Shown here: positions 4,808 to 24,379 of the stretch, one piece after another
Position numbering within the stretch: position 1 is the stretch's first letter
Layout: the number at the start of each line of letters is the position of its first letter
Notes under the pieces: model-generated
The model's input: the letters and a program-made list of their open reading frames with translations, nothing else
Databases searched by the model: none
What the model was told of the DNA's origin: nothing
DNA from: Lentisphaeria bacterium
GTDB lineage: Bacteria; Verrucomicrobiota; Lentisphaeria; Victivallales; Victivallaceae
Direction of reading: 5' to 3'
Assembly (NCBI GenBank): GCA_017414565.1
Contig: JAFQLP010000116.1
Coordinates: 1 to 35,372, forward strand
DNA: 35,372 nucleotides
Program-made: the position numbers and the translations under genes

Positions 4808-6805
4808 ATGAGATATTTCAGCCGTATGCTGGTGATTCTGGGTGCCATGCTGTTGACGGCATCGGTGCAGGGGGCTTCGTCGCCGGAGGAGATCCGGGCC
4901 GTCTGGATCTGGGGCTCCGTGGTGAACAGCCAGGGGGCGGGCAACGTTGCCTCCAAATTGAGAAATGGCGGTATCAATACCGCCATGCTGCTGGTCAAAG
5001 GGGTCGGGGGCGGCGGTTCGTGGAACAGCAAAGTCTGTCTTTCTCCGAACAAGAACGATGCGCTTGCCAAATATACCTCGACATTCCGCAATTACGGGAT
5101 CAAATGCCATTTGTGGTTCATTTTCAACAGCGATGACGCGTGGCTGGCCAAGCATCCCAGCGATTTTGTGTGGCACTATGGCGAAGGGACGCCGTACATC
5201 CGCACCTCCAGCAGTTATGTCTGCCCGATCAGCGATTACCGGGCCTATTTCCTGTCGATGATCGAGGAAGTGCTGCAGAAGCCCGGTACTTACCCGATCG
5301 ACGGTATCCATCTGGACTACATCCGTTACGGTCATGCGGTGTACTGCTTCTGCCCGAAACATATCACCAAGGCCAAAGGGCTGGGGATCGATACCGACAA
5401 GATTTTGAGTTCGCTCAAGGCGGGCTTCAGCAACAGCGGTTCCGGTCAGGCCTATTTCGATCTGCTGCGCAATGGCGATCCGGATGTCACCAAGTGGGTG
5501 CAGATGCGCGAAGACGAAGTCAAATCGGTGGTCGATGATGTGAAGAAATTGATCGACAAATACCAGCCGTCGCTGACATTGAGCGCGGCTCTCATGCCGG
5601 AAGGCGGCGAAGAAGACCCGACCTTTGCCCGCTGTCATTACGGGCAGAATTACGAACAGCTCGGTCCCTCGCTGGACCTGATCTGCCCCATGACCTATCA
5701 CAAGGGCAGCAGCCGTTCCTATACCTGGTGCAGTGATATTGCCACCCGCGCCCACAGACGCAGCGGTACCAGCGTGCTGACCGGTATGGCCGGGGAAGAC
5801 TCCGTGGCCAATGTGATCGCGGATTCCCGGGCCCGCGGCGGCACGACCGGCTATATCATTTTCCGTTACAACTCTATGACCTCCACCAACTGGTCCGCCA
5901 CGACGGCGGCGGATCGGGATGCCAATCATTTGAGCGATGTCGATAACAACGGGCGGGCCGATCTGATGCTGGTCAATGCGGCCGGTAACAGCGGTGCCTG
6001 GCTGGTCAAGGCCGGCAGCACGATCGCCTGGCAGCCCATGAGCGATATGGCGGATGGTTTTGCTGTATTGGATTTCGGCTTCACCAGCCGGGCCAAACAG
6101 AATGCCGACGTTTATCTGTACAATGCGGCCGCGGGTGTGGTCGGTGCCTGGGTGACGGGTAAATCCGGTGTGACCGGCTGGCAGACCATCGGCAATTTTG
6201 ATCCGCAATCCGAGGTGTTGGGCGTGGGCGATTTCAATGGTGACGGCATTTCCGACCTGTTGCTGCGTTCCGCGGCGGGTGATGTCGGCTGTTTCCTGGG
6301 CGGCACTTCCACGCTCGCCGGCGGCTGGTATTATTTCCAGAGCCTCAGCCCCGAATGGGATATCGCGGGGATCGGCGACCTTAACGGCGACGGTTTCGAT
6401 GACCTGGTGCTGGCGCATCAGGCCGGTTACTCCGGGGTGTGGCTGATCAAGCATATGACGCCGGTGTGGAGTGATCTGGGTACGCTTACGAGCAGTACCC
6501 GGATCATCAGCTGCGGCGATTTTGACGGCGACGGTACCGATGATGTTCTGGTTGCCATCGGCAGCATTTACGGTGCCTGGATGGTCAAAGACGGTTCCGT
6601 GGTCGGCTGGCGTGATTTCGGTTTCATCAACGGCACGATCGAAGATGTTGCCGATTACAACAGTGATGGTGCCGATGATATCCGTATCCGTACGGCATCG
6701 GGGGATATCGGGTATTTGGCCGTGCCGGTGAATGGCGGGTTGCCGACCTGGAAATGGCTCGGTTCCGTCGGCGAAGAATGGATCACCGGCAAAACCGGGC
6801 TCTGA
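4808..6805 (+). CDS. Protein A: secreted GHL10-like glycosidase-type protein with six FG-GAP-like repeats
   Basis: Predicted product is 665 aa. A signal peptide (about residues 1-22, hydrophobic core then SVQGA) predicts export. Residues about 27-365 resemble the GHL10/DUF187 TIM-barrel family: an IRAVWIW opening strand, DGIHLDYIRY at 165-174 with the conserved Asp170, and ICPMTYH at 292-298. The family is linked to polysaccharide degradation, but the substrate is unknown. From about residue 377 there are six repeats of 45-55 residues. Repeats 1 and 3-6 carry DxNxDG-type loops (for example GDFNGDGISD) that resemble calcium-binding FG-GAP or propeller blades; repeat 2 lacks the loop. The same six-repeat module ends proteins B (6948-10094) and D (22037-24379). 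Terminators on both sides suggest a single-gene transcript. Confidence 0.75.
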   Translation: MRYFSRMLVILGAMLLTASVQGASSPEEIRAVWIWGSVVNSQGAGNVASKLRNGGINTAMLLVKGVGGGGSWNSKVCLSPNKNDALAKYTSTFRNYGIKCHLWFIFNSDDAWLAKHPSDFVWHYGEGTPYIRTSSSYVCPISDYRAYFLSMIEEVLQKPGTYPIDGIHLDYIRYGHAVYCFCPKHITKAKGLGIDTDKILSSLKAGFSNSGSGQAYFDLLRNGDPDVTKWVQMREDEVKSVVDDVKKLIDKYQPSLTLSAALMPEGGEEDPTFARCHYGQNYEQLGPSLDLICPMTYHKGSSRSYTWCSDIATRAHRRSGTSVLTGMAGEDSVANVIADSRARGGTTGYIIFRYNSMTSTNWSATTAADRDANHLSDVDNNGRADLMLVNAAGNSGAWLVKAGSTIAWQPMSDMADGFAVLDFGFTSRAKQNADVYLYNAAAGVVGAWVTGKSGVTGWQTIGNFDPQSEVLGVGDFNGDGISDLLLRSAAGDVGCFLGGTSTLAGGWYYFQSLSPEWDIAGIGDLNGDGFDDLVLAHQAGYSGVWLIKHMTPVWSDLGTLTSSTRIISCGDFDGDGTDDVLVAIGSIYGAWMVKDGSVVGWRDFGFINGTIEDVADYNSDGADDIRIRTASGDIGYLAVPVNGGLPTWKWLGSVGEEWITGKTGL

Positions 6806-6895: not shown

Positions 6896-6947
6896 TCACC
6901 TGTGACAGATGTGTGCAACAGATCGTTTTAAGAAAGGGAGCCCCGGT

Positions 6948-9900
6948 ATGAAAATGAAAAAAATGTTTGCTTTACTGCTGGCTCTGCTGCCGGTAATGGT
7001 GATGGCGGCGACCGATATGTATGTCGCTCCGAAAGCCATCGGCACAGGGGATGGCTACACGGCGGCCAACGCGGCTGCCTGGACCGATGAGTTGTTCTGG
7101 ATCCATGTCCAGCAGCGGATCAAAAAAGCGGATACCACGGTACATTTTGCCGCCGGGGAATATATTGCCAGTAAAACATCGGCGCGCAATGTCTGTCTGG
7201 CACTTTCATCGCGCGGATCGGAAAAATATACGCTGACCCTGCTCGGTGCCGACAACAAGGGATCCGTTTTTATGCGGGACCCGTCGGAATCCAAGGCGCA
7301 GACCACCGCAAACCGTCTGGCGTACATCATTTATCTTTACAACTGTACCAATGTGGTGGTTGACAATCTGCACTTTACCGGTGACGGTGCGCTTGGGTAT
7401 GTGCTGTCGATTCGTACGCCGCACAATGTGCTGGTGCGCAACTGTACCTTTACCGACATGACCGGCATTTATTACGGTGCGACCGGTTCCAGTACCGGCG
7501 GTTCCGGGGTTGCCTGGGAAAACTGCGTGTTCGACAACATCGGTGTCGGCGGCACGGCGCACTGTATCTACAATGCCTACGATGTGAATGATATTCTGAT
7601 CCGCAACTGCATTTTCCGCGATTGTTTCGGGGATTATGTCCGGTTCCGGGACAAATGCCTGCGCTGTACGGTGGAAAATTGCACCTTTGAATCAACCGGG
7701 CGTTACAATGGCAATGCCTTTATCTCCTGTCCCCAGTTTAATGACGAAGATCCGGCCGAGAAAACCGATCCGGCCGATCATGAATATTTTTCGCAGAATA
7801 TTGCGATCCGCAACTGCACCTTTATCGGTTTGAACCGTTCGGTCGATAAATCCCAGTACATGCTCAAGTTTCTTCAGGACGGGTTCAATCCGATCGGCAA
7901 AGAATACCTGATCAGCAAAAGCGAGGCGAATGCTTTGACGACCATGCCGGCGGCGGAAGCCAGAGCATGGATGAAGAACCGGCTGGATATCGATCTGGAC
8001 AATCTGCAATGGGTGAACAACACCAATCTCGGTGCCGCCGGGGTGTGTCAGTATTCCTGCCGTCCCGCGTATGGAGCGGAAAAAGAGTTTCCGCTCTCCA
8101 CCTACAACAACACGGTCGATATTTCCCGGTTGCTGCACATTCAGCAGAACCGTGCGGCGCAGTTGCCGGACGAGACCCGGGCGGTATGGGTGTGGAGCGA
8201 TTCGATCAAAAACGGCGATGCTTCGGCCATTGCCTCCAAACTCAAGGCCAGCGGTATCAATACGGTCATGCTGCTGGTCAAAGGCTCCAACGGGGTGGTC
8301 TGCTGGAAGAGTTCGGTCGCATTGGCCCAGGACAGTCAGGATTCGCTGGCGGAGTGGACCCGGACATTCCGCAGTTACGGAATCGCGGTACATGCCTGGT
8401 TTGTGTATCACAGCGACCTTGCGTGGGCCAATAAGCATCCCCAGGACCGGGTTTATCATTACGGCAAAGGCGGACAGCCGGCGATCCTGACCTCCGGGAA
8501 TCTGATCTGCCCGCAGTCGGAATACCGCAGTTATTTCCTTTCGCTGGTTCGGGAACTGGTCAGCCAGCCGGGGAAATATCAACTCGATGGCATCCATCTC
8601 GGTATCCGTTATACCAATGCCGTGTACTGTTTCTGCCCGGAACATCTGGAAAAAGCGAAACAACTCGGCATCAATACGGATACTGTCCGGATCGCGCTGT
8701 ATGCCGGGTTTGGCAGCGATAACAGCGGCAACGGCGAAGTTTATTATTCGCATCTCCGCGGCGGCGACCGGAATGTGAGCGCGTGGGTCGCCATGCGGGA
8801 GGCGGAGATCAAAGGGGTTTTCGAGGATGTGGCTGCGATCCTGGCGGAATACCAGCCGTCGCTGGTACTTTCGCTTTCGGCACAGCCGGAAACGGGTTAC
8901 GCCGATCCGACCATTGCCCGCTGTCAGTATGCCCAGAATCTGGCGGATCTGGGGGATACGCTGGATCTGGTTTGTCCGACCGGCGATCATACGGCGGCTT
9001 CGCAACCGGCCTCCTGGTGCGCGGATATTGCGGTGCAGGCGGCGGCCCGCGGCGGAGTGCCGGCTCTGACCGGCATGGGCGGCAGTGATGATGTGGAAAC
9101 GGTGGTGACAGAGTCCCGGAGCCGGGGCGGGACCGCCGGTTTTGCCGTTTTCCGTTATGGAACGATCGAGGCGGTCAATTTTGAGCGGTTGGGGCGGGTG
9201 TTTTCTTCGACCTACCCGGGCGATCTGGATCACAATGGCCAGGCGGATCTGATCATGATCGATGCCGCCGGCAACACCGGGGCATGGCTGACCCGGTCCG
9301 ACGGTTCGGTTTCCTGGCGGGATCTCAGCACGCTTTCCAACGGCTTTGAGATCTTGGGCTGGGGCAGTACGGTGCGCGGTAAAGATAGCCCCGACATTTA
9401 TCTTTACAGTGCGACCTCGGGGGTGGTCGGCGCATGGTTGACCGATTCTGTGACCGGTGTGACCGGCTGGTTGACGATCGCGGCATTTGATGCCGGCAGT
9501 CAGGTGGTCGGACTGGGCGATTTCAACGGCGACGGGATCTCGGATATGCTGGTCCGTTCTGCCACCGGCGATGTCGGGTGCTGGCTGGGCGGATCGGATG
9601 ATCTGGTGAGCGGCTGGCATTATTTCCAGAGTCTGGGTGCGGAATGGATGATTTCCGGGATCGGGGATCTGAATGGCGACGGGATCGATGATGTGGTGCT
9701 GAACCATGTTGCCGGTTATTCCGGGGTCTGGCTGATCCGGCGGATGATTCCGGAATGGAGCGATCTGGGAATGCTGAATGCCGCCAGTTCCATTGTCGGA
9801 TGCGGCGATTTTGATGGTGACGGTACCGATGATGTTCTGATACGGATCGGCGAGGTTTACGGTGCCTGGATGATCGGCAATGGTCTGGTCCTGGGCTGGC

Positions 9901-10094
9901 GGGATCTGGTGGCGTTCAACGGCGATGTGGAAGATATCGTGGATGTGGACAACGACGGAGTCGATGATCTCCGGGTCCGTTCAGCCAACGGTGATCTGGG
10001 GTATTTCCGTGTCATCGAGAGCGGCGAAGCGGTCTCCTGGCATTATTACGGTTCGGTCGGGAGCAACTGGACGACTGCTTTGCAGGGGCGGTGA
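6948..10094 (+). CDS. Protein B: secreted beta-helix + degenerate GHL10-like domain + six FG-GAP-like repeats
   Basis: Predicted product is 1048 aa. ATG 6948 is chosen over upstream in-frame codons because AAAGGGAG precedes it and the product then begins with a clean signal peptide (about residues 1-20). Residues about 22-400 form a right-handed parallel beta-helix with many NCTF/NCIF-type rungs, closely matching protein C (13912-15087). Residues about 410-755 match the GHL10-like domain of protein A. Residues about 759-1048 are the same six FG-GAP-like repeats. B's GHL10 domain departs from A at two conserved places. DGIHLDYIRY becomes DGIHLGIRY (547-555, one codon shorter, Asp lost), and CPMTYH becomes CPTGDH (676-681). 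The frame is intact, so it is a full gene, but its glycosidase activity is doubtful. A carbohydrate-binding or lyase-type role through the beta-helix is possible. Confidence 0.72.
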   Translation: MKMKKMFALLLALLPVMVMAATDMYVAPKAIGTGDGYTAANAAAWTDELFWIHVQQRIKKADTTVHFAAGEYIASKTSARNVCLALSSRGSEKYTLTLLGADNKGSVFMRDPSESKAQTTANRLAYIIYLYNCTNVVVDNLHFTGDGALGYVLSIRTPHNVLVRNCTFTDMTGIYYGATGSSTGGSGVAWENCVFDNIGVGGTAHCIYNAYDVNDILIRNCIFRDCFGDYVRFRDKCLRCTVENCTFESTGRYNGNAFISCPQFNDEDPAEKTDPADHEYFSQNIAIRNCTFIGLNRSVDKSQYMLKFLQDGFNPIGKEYLISKSEANALTTMPAAEARAWMKNRLDIDLDNLQWVNNTNLGAAGVCQYSCRPAYGAEKEFPLSTYNNTVDISRLLHIQQNRAAQLPDETRAVWVWSDSIKNGDASAIASKLKASGINTVMLLVKGSNGVVCWKSSVALAQDSQDSLAEWTRTFRSYGIAVHAWFVYHSDLAWANKHPQDRVYHYGKGGQPAILTSGNLICPQSEYRSYFLSLVRELVSQPGKYQLDGIHLGIRYTNAVYCFCPEHLEKAKQLGINTDTVRIALYAGFGSDNSGNGEVYYSHLRGGDRNVSAWVAMREAEIKGVFEDVAAILAEYQPSLVLSLSAQPETGYADPTIARCQYAQNLADLGDTLDLVCPTGDHTAASQPASWCADIAVQAAARGGVPALTGMGGSDDVETVVTESRSRGGTAGFAVFRYGTIEAVNFERLGRVFSSTYPGDLDHNGQADLIMIDAAGNTGAWLTRSDGSVSWRDLSTLSNGFEILGWGSTVRGKDSPDIYLYSATSGVVGAWLTDSVTGVTGWLTIAAFDAGSQVVGLGDFNGDGISDMLVRSATGDVGCWLGGSDDLVSGWHYFQSLGAEWMISGIGDLNGDGIDDVVLNHVAGYSGVWLIRRMIPEWSDLGMLNAASSIVGCGDFDGDGTDDVLIRIGEVYGAWMIGNGLVLGWRDLVAFNGDVEDIVDVDNDGVDDLRVRSANGDLGYFRVIESGEAVSWHYYGSVGSNWTTALQGR

Positions 10095-13837: not shown

Positions 13838-13890
13838 AAAAAAAGGGGCTGTTGCCAAACCTCAAAAAGGTGAGCAACAGCCTCTTTGTC
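13838..13890. terminator. Bidirectional terminator between cysK and protein C
   Basis: A 12-bp stem (AGGGGCTGTTGC with GCAACAGCCTCT, one wobble) has seven As on its left and TTTGTCTTT on its right. It can therefore end transcripts from both converging genes. The minus-strand T-tract is the stronger one. Confidence 0.85.
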
Positions 13891-21297: not shown

Positions 21298-21732
21298 ATG
21301 AAAATTTTACTGCCATTTGCTGTAATTGTTGTCATTTTTATGAGTTCATGCAATGAATCAAAACATGATACTGCAAAACAAATTATTCATTCTATACAAA
21401 ACGCGACAAATAAAATGAGACAAACTGGCGAATCGGAATTTGAAATAAAAATACCGGCGAATTCACAATATAAAGTTATTTATTTTTACCCTTATACAAG
21501 TTTCGACAACATAAGAGTTGAGAATTCAATCAAAAAGAAGTTGGAGAGGATTGCATTTTCAATGGAGAAGCCATTTTTTGTTGTTGTTGAAGATGACAAT
21601 TTGTTGGAATATTGTAATGTGGATTTTGCATTAGATCCTTCAGGAGAAATGCCCATGGTGTGGTCTGCGCATCATGGTATCATATGCATCAAAATTCAAA
21701 AAAAGCAAGATGGAGCGTATGTCTTATATTAA
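21298..21732 (+). CDS. Small lipoprotein of unknown function in AT-rich island
   Basis: Predicted product is 144 aa. ATG 21298 is preferred over a GTG two codons upstream; the ribosome site is weak. The N-terminus is a lipoprotein signal, MKILLPFAVIVVIFMSSC, with a plausible lipobox Cys at 18. The mature part is small and mixed alpha/beta, rich in Lys, Ile and Asn, with no family I recognise. Base and codon use (AAA, ATT, TTT) differ sharply from every neighbour, which suggests recent transfer. Genes of this kind are sometimes immunity or inhibitor lipoproteins, but no toxin partner is visible, so this is only a thought. Confidence 0.6.
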   Translation: MKILLPFAVIVVIFMSSCNESKHDTAKQIIHSIQNATNKMRQTGESEFEIKIPANSQYKVIYFYPYTSFDNIRVENSIKKKLERIAFSMEKPFFVVVEDDNLLEYCNVDFALDPSGEMPMVWSAHHGIICIKIQKKQDGAYVLY

Positions 21733-21832
21733 CTTCATTTTTGGGGCACCTTATTTTTAGTTCCTTGAACTACTATGTCCATCGGTTGAGGATATAGCGA
21801 TCCATTCCCATTCCATTTTATCGACAAAAAAT

Positions 21833-22025
21833 CAGGAGGCTCGGCAGAGTATCGTTTTCAAAAAAATCGCCCCTCCGCTCTGCTTTGCCTCCTGTTCCCC
21901 CTCCGCTTATATCAGCGCGTTTATCTGGCCGCGAAAGCGGCGGATAAACGCGCTCATTCAGAAGTTTTTGTAAAGGGAGAGCGCGAGAGGGGAGAAACTT
22001 TTTTCAAAAAGTTTTCCCCTCTCGC
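21833..22025. repeat. Block of three successive large stem-loops
   Basis: Stem-loop 1 is 21833-21894. CAGGAGGC and GCAGAG on the left pair perfectly with CTCTGC and GCCTCCTG on the right, with matched 3-nt internal loops. Stem-loop 2 is 21914-21954: a 12-bp perfect stem (AGCGCGTTTATC), then a 5-bp GCCGC/GCGGC stem closed by GAAA. Stem-loop 3 is 21983-22025: a stem of about 20 bp starting GCGAGAGGGG, with one bulged A and T/A runs near the loop. Stem-loop 3 begins 11 bp after the stop of protein D on the minus strand and could end its transcript. The rest of 21733-22036 holds only a 6-bp hairpin at 21758-21772 and no gene. Confidence 0.85.
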
Positions 22026-22036
22026 ATCATCTGCAA

Positions 22037-24379
22037 TTACAACACGCCGCAGCCTTTGGTGGACCATTCGGCGCCGAGGGCACCGTATTCAGCCCAGGTG
22101 GAGGCATCGGAACCGGTGATGAGAGCCGCGCCGATGATACCGCCGGTGGTGCGGAAGAGGACATCATCGGTGCCGTCGGCGTTGTAGTCGGCGATATCCT
22201 GGACTTCAGCGTCGAAGGTGCCGATACCGAAGAAACCGGTGACTGCGCCGTTGCCGCAGAGCCACGCGCCGTAGTAGTTGCCGACTTTGACGAGGACGTC
22301 ATCGGTGCCGTCAGCGTTGAAGTCGCCCGCGCCGACGATTTCGATACCGCCTTCGGTGCTGCCGAGGTCGCCCCAGGTGATGGAGCCGTCTTTACCGATC
22401 AGGTACGCGCCGACGTAGCCGCCATCGGTGTGAGCGATAGCGATATCGGTGGTGCCGTCGCCGTTGAAGTCGCCGAGGGCCTTGACCTGCCATTCGGAAC
22501 CGACGCCCTTGACTTCCTGGAACGCGCCATTGGCGAGGTAGCCGTCAGCGGTACGGAGCATGAGGTCAGAAACGCCGTCGGCGTTGAAGTCGCCGAGACC
22601 GACCTGCATCAGAGCGGATTCGCCGGCGAAGATGGTGGCGAAGTTGGCGATCGCACCGTTTTCATCGGTGACATAGGCACCGATGTATTTGTTGGAGGCA
22701 CTGTAGATGTAAACATCGCTCATGGCCTTGCCGGCAGCGGTCTTGCCCAGACCGAGGATCTGATAATCGCCGGAGAGGGTGGAGAGATCCTGCCAGACGA
22801 CCTTCTGGTCATCCATGACTTTCCAGGCACCGGTCGCGCCGAAGTAGGCGTGGTTGGTGTCGGTGATGGTCAGGACGACATCAGTGGTGAACTTGGCTTC
22901 GACGACCGGCGGCGGTTCCGGAGCAGCGGTGCCGCCGACGACTTCGAGGAGAAGTTCGCCATCTTCCATGGTCAGGGTGAAGACGCTGCCGTTTTCGCCG
23001 CGGATGGTGCCGCTGGTGTTGCTGGAGGAGAGCTGGACGGAGCCTTCGAGACCCTGAACGGTGAAGACGGTGTCCTGGGCTTCAAAACCGGTGGCCAGTT
23101 TGTAACTGCCGGACTTGGTGGTGTCGGCTTTGATGCTGACGCCGGAGGAAACGATGTATTCGTTGACGAGGTAGGCTGCGCCTTCGGTAATATCGAAGAC
23201 GAGGTTCGTCAGCTGATCGTCGAGGTAGTCGGCGATGGTGGTGGTACCGGCACCGATGACCAGTTCAGCGTAGCTGGCGGTACCGCCGTCGAGGACGACG
23301 ACTTCGCCGGAGAGTTCGACATTGGCGAGGTAAACGGAGACGGTGTCGGCCAGAACATGGTCACGGACACCGTACACGCTGGTACCGACGGAGTTGGTGA
23401 CTTTGACATAGACGTCGCCGGTTTCGACCACGCTGGAGGTGCCATAACGATGGCCGCCGACCACGCTGCGGCCCAGGACGCAGTCGTCAACGGTGATGTC
23501 GACTTTGTTGCTGGTGACGGAGAACGCAAAACCGGCCACGGAACCGAGCGCAGCAACGCCCTCCTGCCCCACACCAGTGATGGTGGAACCGGTAACGTTG
23601 ATGACGATGTCGCCGTTGACGGTGTGCTGGGAATAGGCGCCGCAGATCCAGTCCAGAGTGGAGTCTTTCACGGTGATGGTTGCGCCGGCCGAAGTGGTGT
23701 GGTCGGCAAAACCGCTGCCGGAGAAGTTACCGCAGATGGAACCGCCGGTGATTTCAACGGCGTTGATTTCGACGGTACCGCCGATCTTGGAACGGTTGGT
23801 ACCGTAAACCATCGTGAGGGTTTCGGAAAGGGTGCATTTTTCCAGGCTGATGGAGATGTTACCGCAGACCGTGCTGCCGAAGTTAGCGCCATAGATGCTG
23901 CTGCCGGTGAAGTTGCTGCCGGTGGCCTTCATGGTGACATTGCCGGTGACATAGGCTTCGGCGTTGGCCACTAACATGCCCGCGACGGTGGTGTCGGTCA
24001 GGGTCATGGAGATGTTGCCGATCTGGCTGGTGGTACCGTCCGGGCCGGGCTGGTTTCTGTTGTTACCGATACCGCCGCTGATACGGTCGGAGAAGTTACC
24101 GCCATTGACGATGATGTTGACATCGCCGAGGGTGGCGTTGTTGGCGATACGGGTGGCGTCGAAACGGGCGGTGGAGCCGGAGTCCTTATCGAAGATGAGA
24201 GTGATGCCGCTGAAATCAGAAGTGGCAGCATCCAGTTCCATCGCAGCGGACAGCACGGTGTTGATGTGCAGTTCCGTGGCGATGCCCTGCGCGACATAGG
24301 CCTTGGCCGCAGCCTGTGCATCGAGGATGTCGTCGTAGTTGAAAGTCCCGGCGCTGTTTACCAAATAGAAATTCGCCAT
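22037..24379 (-). CDS. Protein D: leaderless beta-solenoid protein with six FG-GAP-like repeats
   Basis: Predicted product is 780 aa, starting MANFYLVNSAGTFNYDD; no signal peptide is visible. AAGGAA lies about 10 nt before the start. Residues about 60-400 are solenoid rungs of the kind GNISISLEKCTL, GDIVINVTGSTI and GDVYVKVTNSV, as in large bacterial surface proteins and autotransporter-like passengers. There is no C-terminal beta-barrel. From about residue 500 come six repeats colinear with those of proteins A and B (GLGDFNADGVSD, ALGDFNGDGTTD, GAGDFNADGTDD, DIADYNADGTDD). Repeats 1 and 2 lack the acidic loop. A TolC/MacAB-type export operon is divergent from it. Surface display through that or another system is an inference. 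Strong promoter features suggest high expression. Confidence 0.75.
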   Translation of the reverse strand: MANFYLVNSAGTFNYDDILDAQAAAKAYVAQGIATELHINTVLSAAMELDAATSDFSGITLIFDKDSGSTARFDATRIANNATLGDVNIIVNGGNFSDRISGGIGNNRNQPGPDGTTSQIGNISMTLTDTTVAGMLVANAEAYVTGNVTMKATGSNFTGSSIYGANFGSTVCGNISISLEKCTLSETLTMVYGTNRSKIGGTVEINAVEITGGSICGNFSGSGFADHTTSAGATITVKDSTLDWICGAYSQHTVNGDIVINVTGSTITGVGQEGVAALGSVAGFAFSVTSNKVDITVDDCVLGRSVVGGHRYGTSSVVETGDVYVKVTNSVGTSVYGVRDHVLADTVSVYLANVELSGEVVVLDGGTASYAELVIGAGTTTIADYLDDQLTNLVFDITEGAAYLVNEYIVSSGVSIKADTTKSGSYKLATGFEAQDTVFTVQGLEGSVQLSSSNTSGTIRGENGSVFTLTMEDGELLLEVVGGTAAPEPPPVVEAKFTTDVVLTITDTNHAYFGATGAWKVMDDQKVVWQDLSTLSGDYQILGLGKTAAGKAMSDVYIYSASNKYIGAYVTDENGAIANFATIFAGESALMQVGLGDFNADGVSDLMLRTADGYLANGAFQEVKGVGSEWQVKALGDFNGDGTTDIAIAHTDGGYVGAYLIGKDGSITWGDLGSTEGGIEIVGAGDFNADGTDDVLVKVGNYYGAWLCGNGAVTGFFGIGTFDAEVQDIADYNADGTDDVLFRTTGGIIGAALITGSDASTWAEYGALGAEWSTKGCGVL

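Follow-up and report, generated by a model that had tools for sequence, protein, structure and literature searches.

A repeated hairpin with a mirror-image third strand behind stop codons: a candidate transcript-end element in Lentisphaeria and other bacteria

Three large stem-loops follow one another at positions 21833-22025 of the window, the 35,372-nt stretch of a Lentisphaeria bacterium contig (JAFQLP010000116.1) analysed here. Are they one unit, and what do they serve? An initial annotation had offered an interspersed element of the REP/BIME type, a single structured RNA or a complex 3' UTR. The stem-loops themselves are present, with the positions and sizes first given to them: the segment 21800-22060 folds with -100.4 kcal/mol as compared to -65.4 +/- 4.5 for shuffled sequences (z -7.85; 0 of 200 as good). 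A plus-strand open reading frame ends at 21732 on the far side of the block, and a minus-strand gene ends at 22037, with S1, S2 and S3 lying directly beyond its stop codon. The block is therefore best read as the 3' UTR of the minus-strand gene, as had been proposed, and its likely sense strand is the minus strand. In the sense direction the order is stop codon, 11 nt spacer, S3, L, S2, S1 and a T6 run. Two of these parts, L, which goes with S3, and the T6 run after S1 on the minus strand (21831-21826), had been overlooked. The features are as follows.

22037 to 24379, minus strand: FG-GAP repeat gene, the owner of the 3' UTR.
21983 to 22025, minus strand: S3, conserved hairpin with arms R and R' and an A/T tip (fold, covariance-model match of 84.3 bits, covariation in the family).
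21962 to 21982, minus strand: L, putative third strand, mirror of the S3 5' arm (mirror tests in the family, orthologous copies).
21914 to 21954, minus strand: S2, companion palindrome downstream of L (fold, own-genome copies, palindrome count in Lentisphaeria).
21826 to 21894, minus strand: S1 hairpin and T6, terminator-like (sequence; fold z -2.5).

L is 21 nt long and reads AAGTTTTTGTAAAGGGAGAGC on the plus strand and GCUCUCCCUUUACAAAAACUU on the minus strand. S3 has about 20 bp and, together with L, forms part of the most conserved stretch. S2 has about 17 bp and a loop that is GAAA on the plus strand and UUUC on the minus strand. The GAAA tetraloop had been taken to favor a function in RNA; on the likely sense strand the loop is UUUC, so that argument does not carry over. 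Two more FG-GAP proteins, with weak matches to GHL-type glycoside hydrolases, are encoded elsewhere in the window (4808-6805 and 6909-10094).

The three hairpins are three different things, not one unit. S1 (21833-21894) consists of two helices with an internal loop and is followed by GATTTTTTG on the minus strand, so that it resembles an ordinary intrinsic terminator serving the minus-strand gene; its long loop kept it off the list of a simple terminator scan. Elsewhere in the same genome, a 2.0-Mb assembly of 183 contigs, S1 has only short weak matches. The idea of a single structured RNA of three stems is not supported, since S1 lacks a long copy and looks like a separate terminator. Relative to the copy on contig C51, S1 with its flank (21833-21912) is placed between S2 and the T run, with a CTGAT direct repeat at the borders, as if a terminator-like hairpin had recently been inserted here or the segment had been deleted from C51.

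S2 and S3 recur together in the same genome on C51 and C176 and, in a decayed form, on C133. The arms of S2 vary among these copies and its pairing is kept in C51. A palindrome follows L in 71 of 98 Lentisphaeria elements, 49 of them with at least 12 bp, a size found in 0 shuffled sequences. Such a variable palindrome may be common to two facing elements in Lentisphaeria. A T run accompanies 13 of the 71, and the palindrome was dropped as a candidate for a general canonical terminator. Another repeat, GGAATAGGGCTATTGCTCCGTTGTCGCAATAGC, lies upstream of the element and is common to the C51 and C133 copies (L018:3740-3860, L020:8300-8500).

The stretch common to other genera is 21962-22025, i.e., AAGTTTTTG, a purine run and S3. 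A covariance model of this S3+L module finds about 20 copies in two subfamilies in the genome itself. It also matches 58 of the 78 genomes in the family (the other 20 being without the module) and 31 of 195 in the phylum. When named genomes were scanned with a pattern, the matches listed included Oscillospiraceae, other Clostridia, Desulfovibrionales, Lentisphaeria, groundwater Deltaproteobacteria, Magnetomicrobium and Zipacnadia. One Clostridia genome has 160 occurrences of the tip sequence with one mismatch or less, and one groundwater Deltaproteobacterium has 102, in counts that take some palindromic variants on both strands; the reversed tip pattern had 0 occurrences. Part of the copies was found through a tip pattern. 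In Rfam no match above the gathering score was found. A phage feature was rejected, with one exact pattern match in 2.9 million viral contigs. In one Clostridia subfamily (L095, L111, L119, L135 and L167) the linker between L and R holds an extra hairpin and the R arm is partly missing; the G/C runs are kept there by L and R' only.

The hairpin is maintained by compensatory changes. In 105 distinct Lentisphaeria rows 95.6% of the cells are paired, and 16 of 17 hairpin pairs have two-sided changes; two-sided cells number 290, versus 91 after shuffling and 66-85 with the partner slid by one column, exact numbers that lean towards structure because the alignment was fitted to the structure. Copies in the genome and its relatives, and covariation among them, were what the initial annotation had asked to see for a repeat element or an RNA; many copies and compensatory changes are what is found.

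L bears a different relation to the hairpin. Its letters mirror those of the 5' arm and are neither the complement nor a direct copy: L read towards the hairpin gives the same letters as the 5' arm read away from the linker, for example AAGAGAGAGGG TACA GGGAGAGAGAA (L099) and GAAAAGGAAGAGC G CGAGAAGGAAAG (L025). A mirror repeat forms no ordinary base pairs; it is the layout needed by a third strand in the major groove. Over 143 copies the mirror score of an element's own L and R is 7.02, versus 5.46 when partners are swapped within a length class (z 18), and the direct-repeat control gives 4.92 versus 4.43 (z 8); for Lentisphaeria alone the values are 9.30 versus 6.88 (z 13; direct-repeat control z 7), these swaps leaving the kinship among copies in place. 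Pairing of L with the hairpin as a direct repeat, of the antiterminator kind, is weaker than the mirror. The mirror register is sharp, identity falling from 73-80% to 55-68% one base off (a drop of 12 to 18 points). The window copy by itself gives a modest signal, with 408 of 20000 shuffles as good (p about 0.02). Among 252 hairpins of the S3 type, 210 retain L.

The letters of L also follow triad rules, with G over G-C in 483 of 513 cases and A or T over A-T in 705 of 753. T in L stands opposite A-T pairs 80 times and opposite G-C 6 times, much of this T signal coming from one preferred position. At orthologous sites in sister genomes all three strands differ together, e.g., L GGAGATGGGG/AGGGTTGGGG, R GGGGAAGAGG/GGGGAAGGGG and R' CCTCTTCCCC/CCCCTTCCCC, a comparison in which some sites have clearly been refilled by another subfamily. 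At the family level, then, three consecutive blocks obey the rules G.GC and A/T.AT. The sharp register, the higher scores of own over swapped pairs and the three-strand changes together point to the layout of an intrastrand triplex of the PIT/BoxC/TMECO kind; that the triplex forms we infer from this layout.

The element is tied to the ends of genes in one orientation. In 82 of 129 copies a long open frame ends with its stop codon 0-30 nt ahead of the hairpin, the hairpin then coming before L; on the L side of the same 129 copies there is no stop-codon peak. The median distance from stop to element is 26.5 nt in Lentisphaeria. In stretches of two Clostridia genomes, with crude gene calls and on contigs picked for carrying at least one tip, the element is at 44 of 149 transcription-unit ends (gap of at least 60 nt), 2 of 72 short tandem gaps (one per genome) and 2 of 26 divergent gaps, and canonical terminators are at 30 ends. 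Convergent gene pairs often have two elements that face each other. In the genome itself the element serves ordinary and diverse genes: a class II tRNA synthetase, MetW, GH35, MATE, HSP90, ATP-grasp, an AMP-binding enzyme, a Clp ATPase and PGK. After CAAAAACTT the next base is T in 88% and the second in 51%, then background. S3 has no U tract directly behind it; the third strand and CAAAAACUU lie in between. The element is thus not a textbook terminator: a short U run follows the third strand, at about 20 nt from the hairpin. A solo hairpin of another sort, GGCTGTTGCCAAACCTCAAAAAGGTGAGCAACAGCC, stands between convergent genes at 13840-13890 of the window, flanked by A6 and TCTTTG. GGCTGTTGCCAAA occurs 34 times in the genome, and the hairpin looks like a repeated bidirectional terminator.

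Position after stop codons favors a role at transcript ends. With moderate confidence we read the block as a 3' UTR whose core, the hairpin with its third strand, is a transcript-end element, acting as a terminator, a 3'-end protector, or both; the probable role of S3+L is to mark message ends or to protect them. The minus-strand hairpin has a purine-rich 5' arm, an A/U tip and a pyrimidine 3' arm, followed by the mirror strand, and L could be placed in its major groove to make the intrastrand triplex. On the minus strand, as RNA or single-stranded DNA, this would be a pyrimidine motif (class III), and the plus strand, as single-stranded DNA, would make a purine motif (class I) with a T5G stretch that would bind in parallel to the A5G of the other arm. 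Either molecule, class III RNA or class I DNA, may be the one that acts. As the end of the message leaves the polymerase, the hairpin and third strand could aid termination and/or block 3' exonucleases. The Hoogsteen strand would end about 9 nt before the weak CAAAAACUU(U) stretch, which could help to release the message or to protect its 3' end. Facing pairs would do the same for both genes of a convergent pair. Weighing against this reading are the short and distant U run, the lack of the module in 20 of 78 genomes in the family, and the reported failure of the related E. coli PIT elements to act as terminators (PMC4666352).

The best surviving alternative is possible, if rather doubtful: S3+L may be a selfish repeat, MITE- or REP-like, that inserts or survives by preference directly behind genes, its fold serving its own single-stranded DNA copying or recognition by a transposase, with little gain to the host. 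The type 2 copies of the genome do sit in 200-330-bp units with inverted ends (GAGGCTGTTGCC...GGCAACAGCC), similar units occur in other genera, the distribution is patchy, and subfamilies replace one another at orthologous sites. A selfish repeat would not be expected to keep so strict a distance and orientation to stop codons, nor to form facing pairs in convergent regions, and the three-strand covariation implies upkeep after copying. Inverted ends were not seen around the window copy and copies of its type, nor were target duplications seen. A Y1 (RAYT-type) transposase, PF01797, was found neither in this genome nor in G102 (it is present in G046 and G105), and a RAYT-driven REP was rejected for this genome. 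The proposal of an interspersed element thus stands for S2+S3, with copies in the genome and the family and with the many extragenic palindromes expected of REP/BIME, and lapses for REP proper. The GGCTGTTGCCAAACCTCAAAAAGGTGAGCAACAGCC hairpin sequence also makes up both inverted ends in the type 2 units, whose palindrome (L218-L233 in the same genome) has its loop in both orientations, ATCGTCACCGAT and ATCGGTGACGAT, as if inverting.

It is improbable that the element works as a DNA structure, the single-stranded plus strand folding (class I) during replication or behind the polymerase to make a barrier or a site of instability, the role suggested for TMECO in E. coli. The preference of T in L for A-T pairs, tolerated by the purine motif only, and the T5G/A5G tip match, which fits only the plus-strand reading, would suit it, as would the report that purine-motif triplexes do not form in RNA (PMC4666352). 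The T signal comes largely from one preferred position, and a 0-30 nt distance from stop codons in one orientation would be left unexplained. Very unlikely, lastly, is an ordinary hairpin terminator or 3' UTR in which the mirror reflects no more than a common gradient, with A close to the tip and G close to the base, or in which L competes for pairing (AAGUUU with AAACUU): the location after stop codons, the ability of AAGTTT to pair with AAACTT and a direct-repeat control that is also above the swaps (z 7-8) agree with it, but swapped pairs share the gradient and yet score lower than own pairs, the register is sharp to one base, the competing pairing is at odds with box and tip combinations such as AAGTTTTTTG with CC/GG tips, and L is retained in most such hairpins.

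If S3+L does act at transcript ends through its third strand, bacteria would have an intrastrand triplex that serves the cell. The formation and role of such triplexes in bacteria have been an open question; three-strand covariation and a fixed position at gene ends, added here, make a direct functional test possible, and some genomes carry more than 100 copies of the hairpin tip. More tentatively, these elements might be cross-phylum transcript-end signals in which a Hoogsteen third strand replaces the U tract or gives a protected 3' end, possibly by way of an alternate-strand triplex that switches between the hairpin arms. Alternate-strand triplexes, in which the third strand passes between arms, are known from model oligonucleotides.

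Known systems share parts of this layout. Like intrinsic terminators, S3+L has a hairpin 0-30 nt past the stop codon and an A/U-rich stretch ending in a few U, and is absent inside operons; it differs in that a conserved, C-rich third strand of about 20 nt separates the hairpin from the short U run. Like REP/BIME, it consists of short multicopy intergenic palindromes, in facing pairs about a central palindrome; its third strand and fixed stop-codon distance set it apart, as does the failure to find a Y1/RAYT transposase in its own genome. The type 2 units resemble MITEs in being short with inverted ends, whereas in the window copy such ends were not seen, nor was a target duplication, and no autonomous partner was identified. 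In a search of the literature by theme and sequence, the only close relative found was the work on the PIT/BoxC/TMECO intrastrand triplex motifs (Hoyne and Maher, as cited in Holder et al. 2015, PMC4666352). These too are intergenic and multicopy, with a third strand, a purine arm and a pyrimidine arm as consecutive blocks on a single strand, and, for G/C-rich parts, a class I motif on one strand makes its complement class III. The E. coli PIT elements are reported to have neither terminator nor promoter activity, to give no in vivo footprint and to have no link to gene orientation (PMC4666352). TMECO is class II, G/C only and mostly proteobacterial; S3+L is unrelated in sequence and would be class I, its purine strand changing arms at an A/T tip. 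By eye, the TMECO/BoxC pattern CCCTCNCCC-N3-6-GGGNGAGGG-N3-GGGNGAGGG does not match the window sequence, which has a different order and the A/T tip. S3+L is found in Lentisphaerota, Clostridia and Desulfovibrionales and is linked to stop codons in one orientation. As read from its copies, the S3+L family is thus distinct from PIT/BoxC/TMECO in sequence, tip, phyla and 3'-end position, and the comparative evidence for a three-strand layout tied to transcript ends is good.
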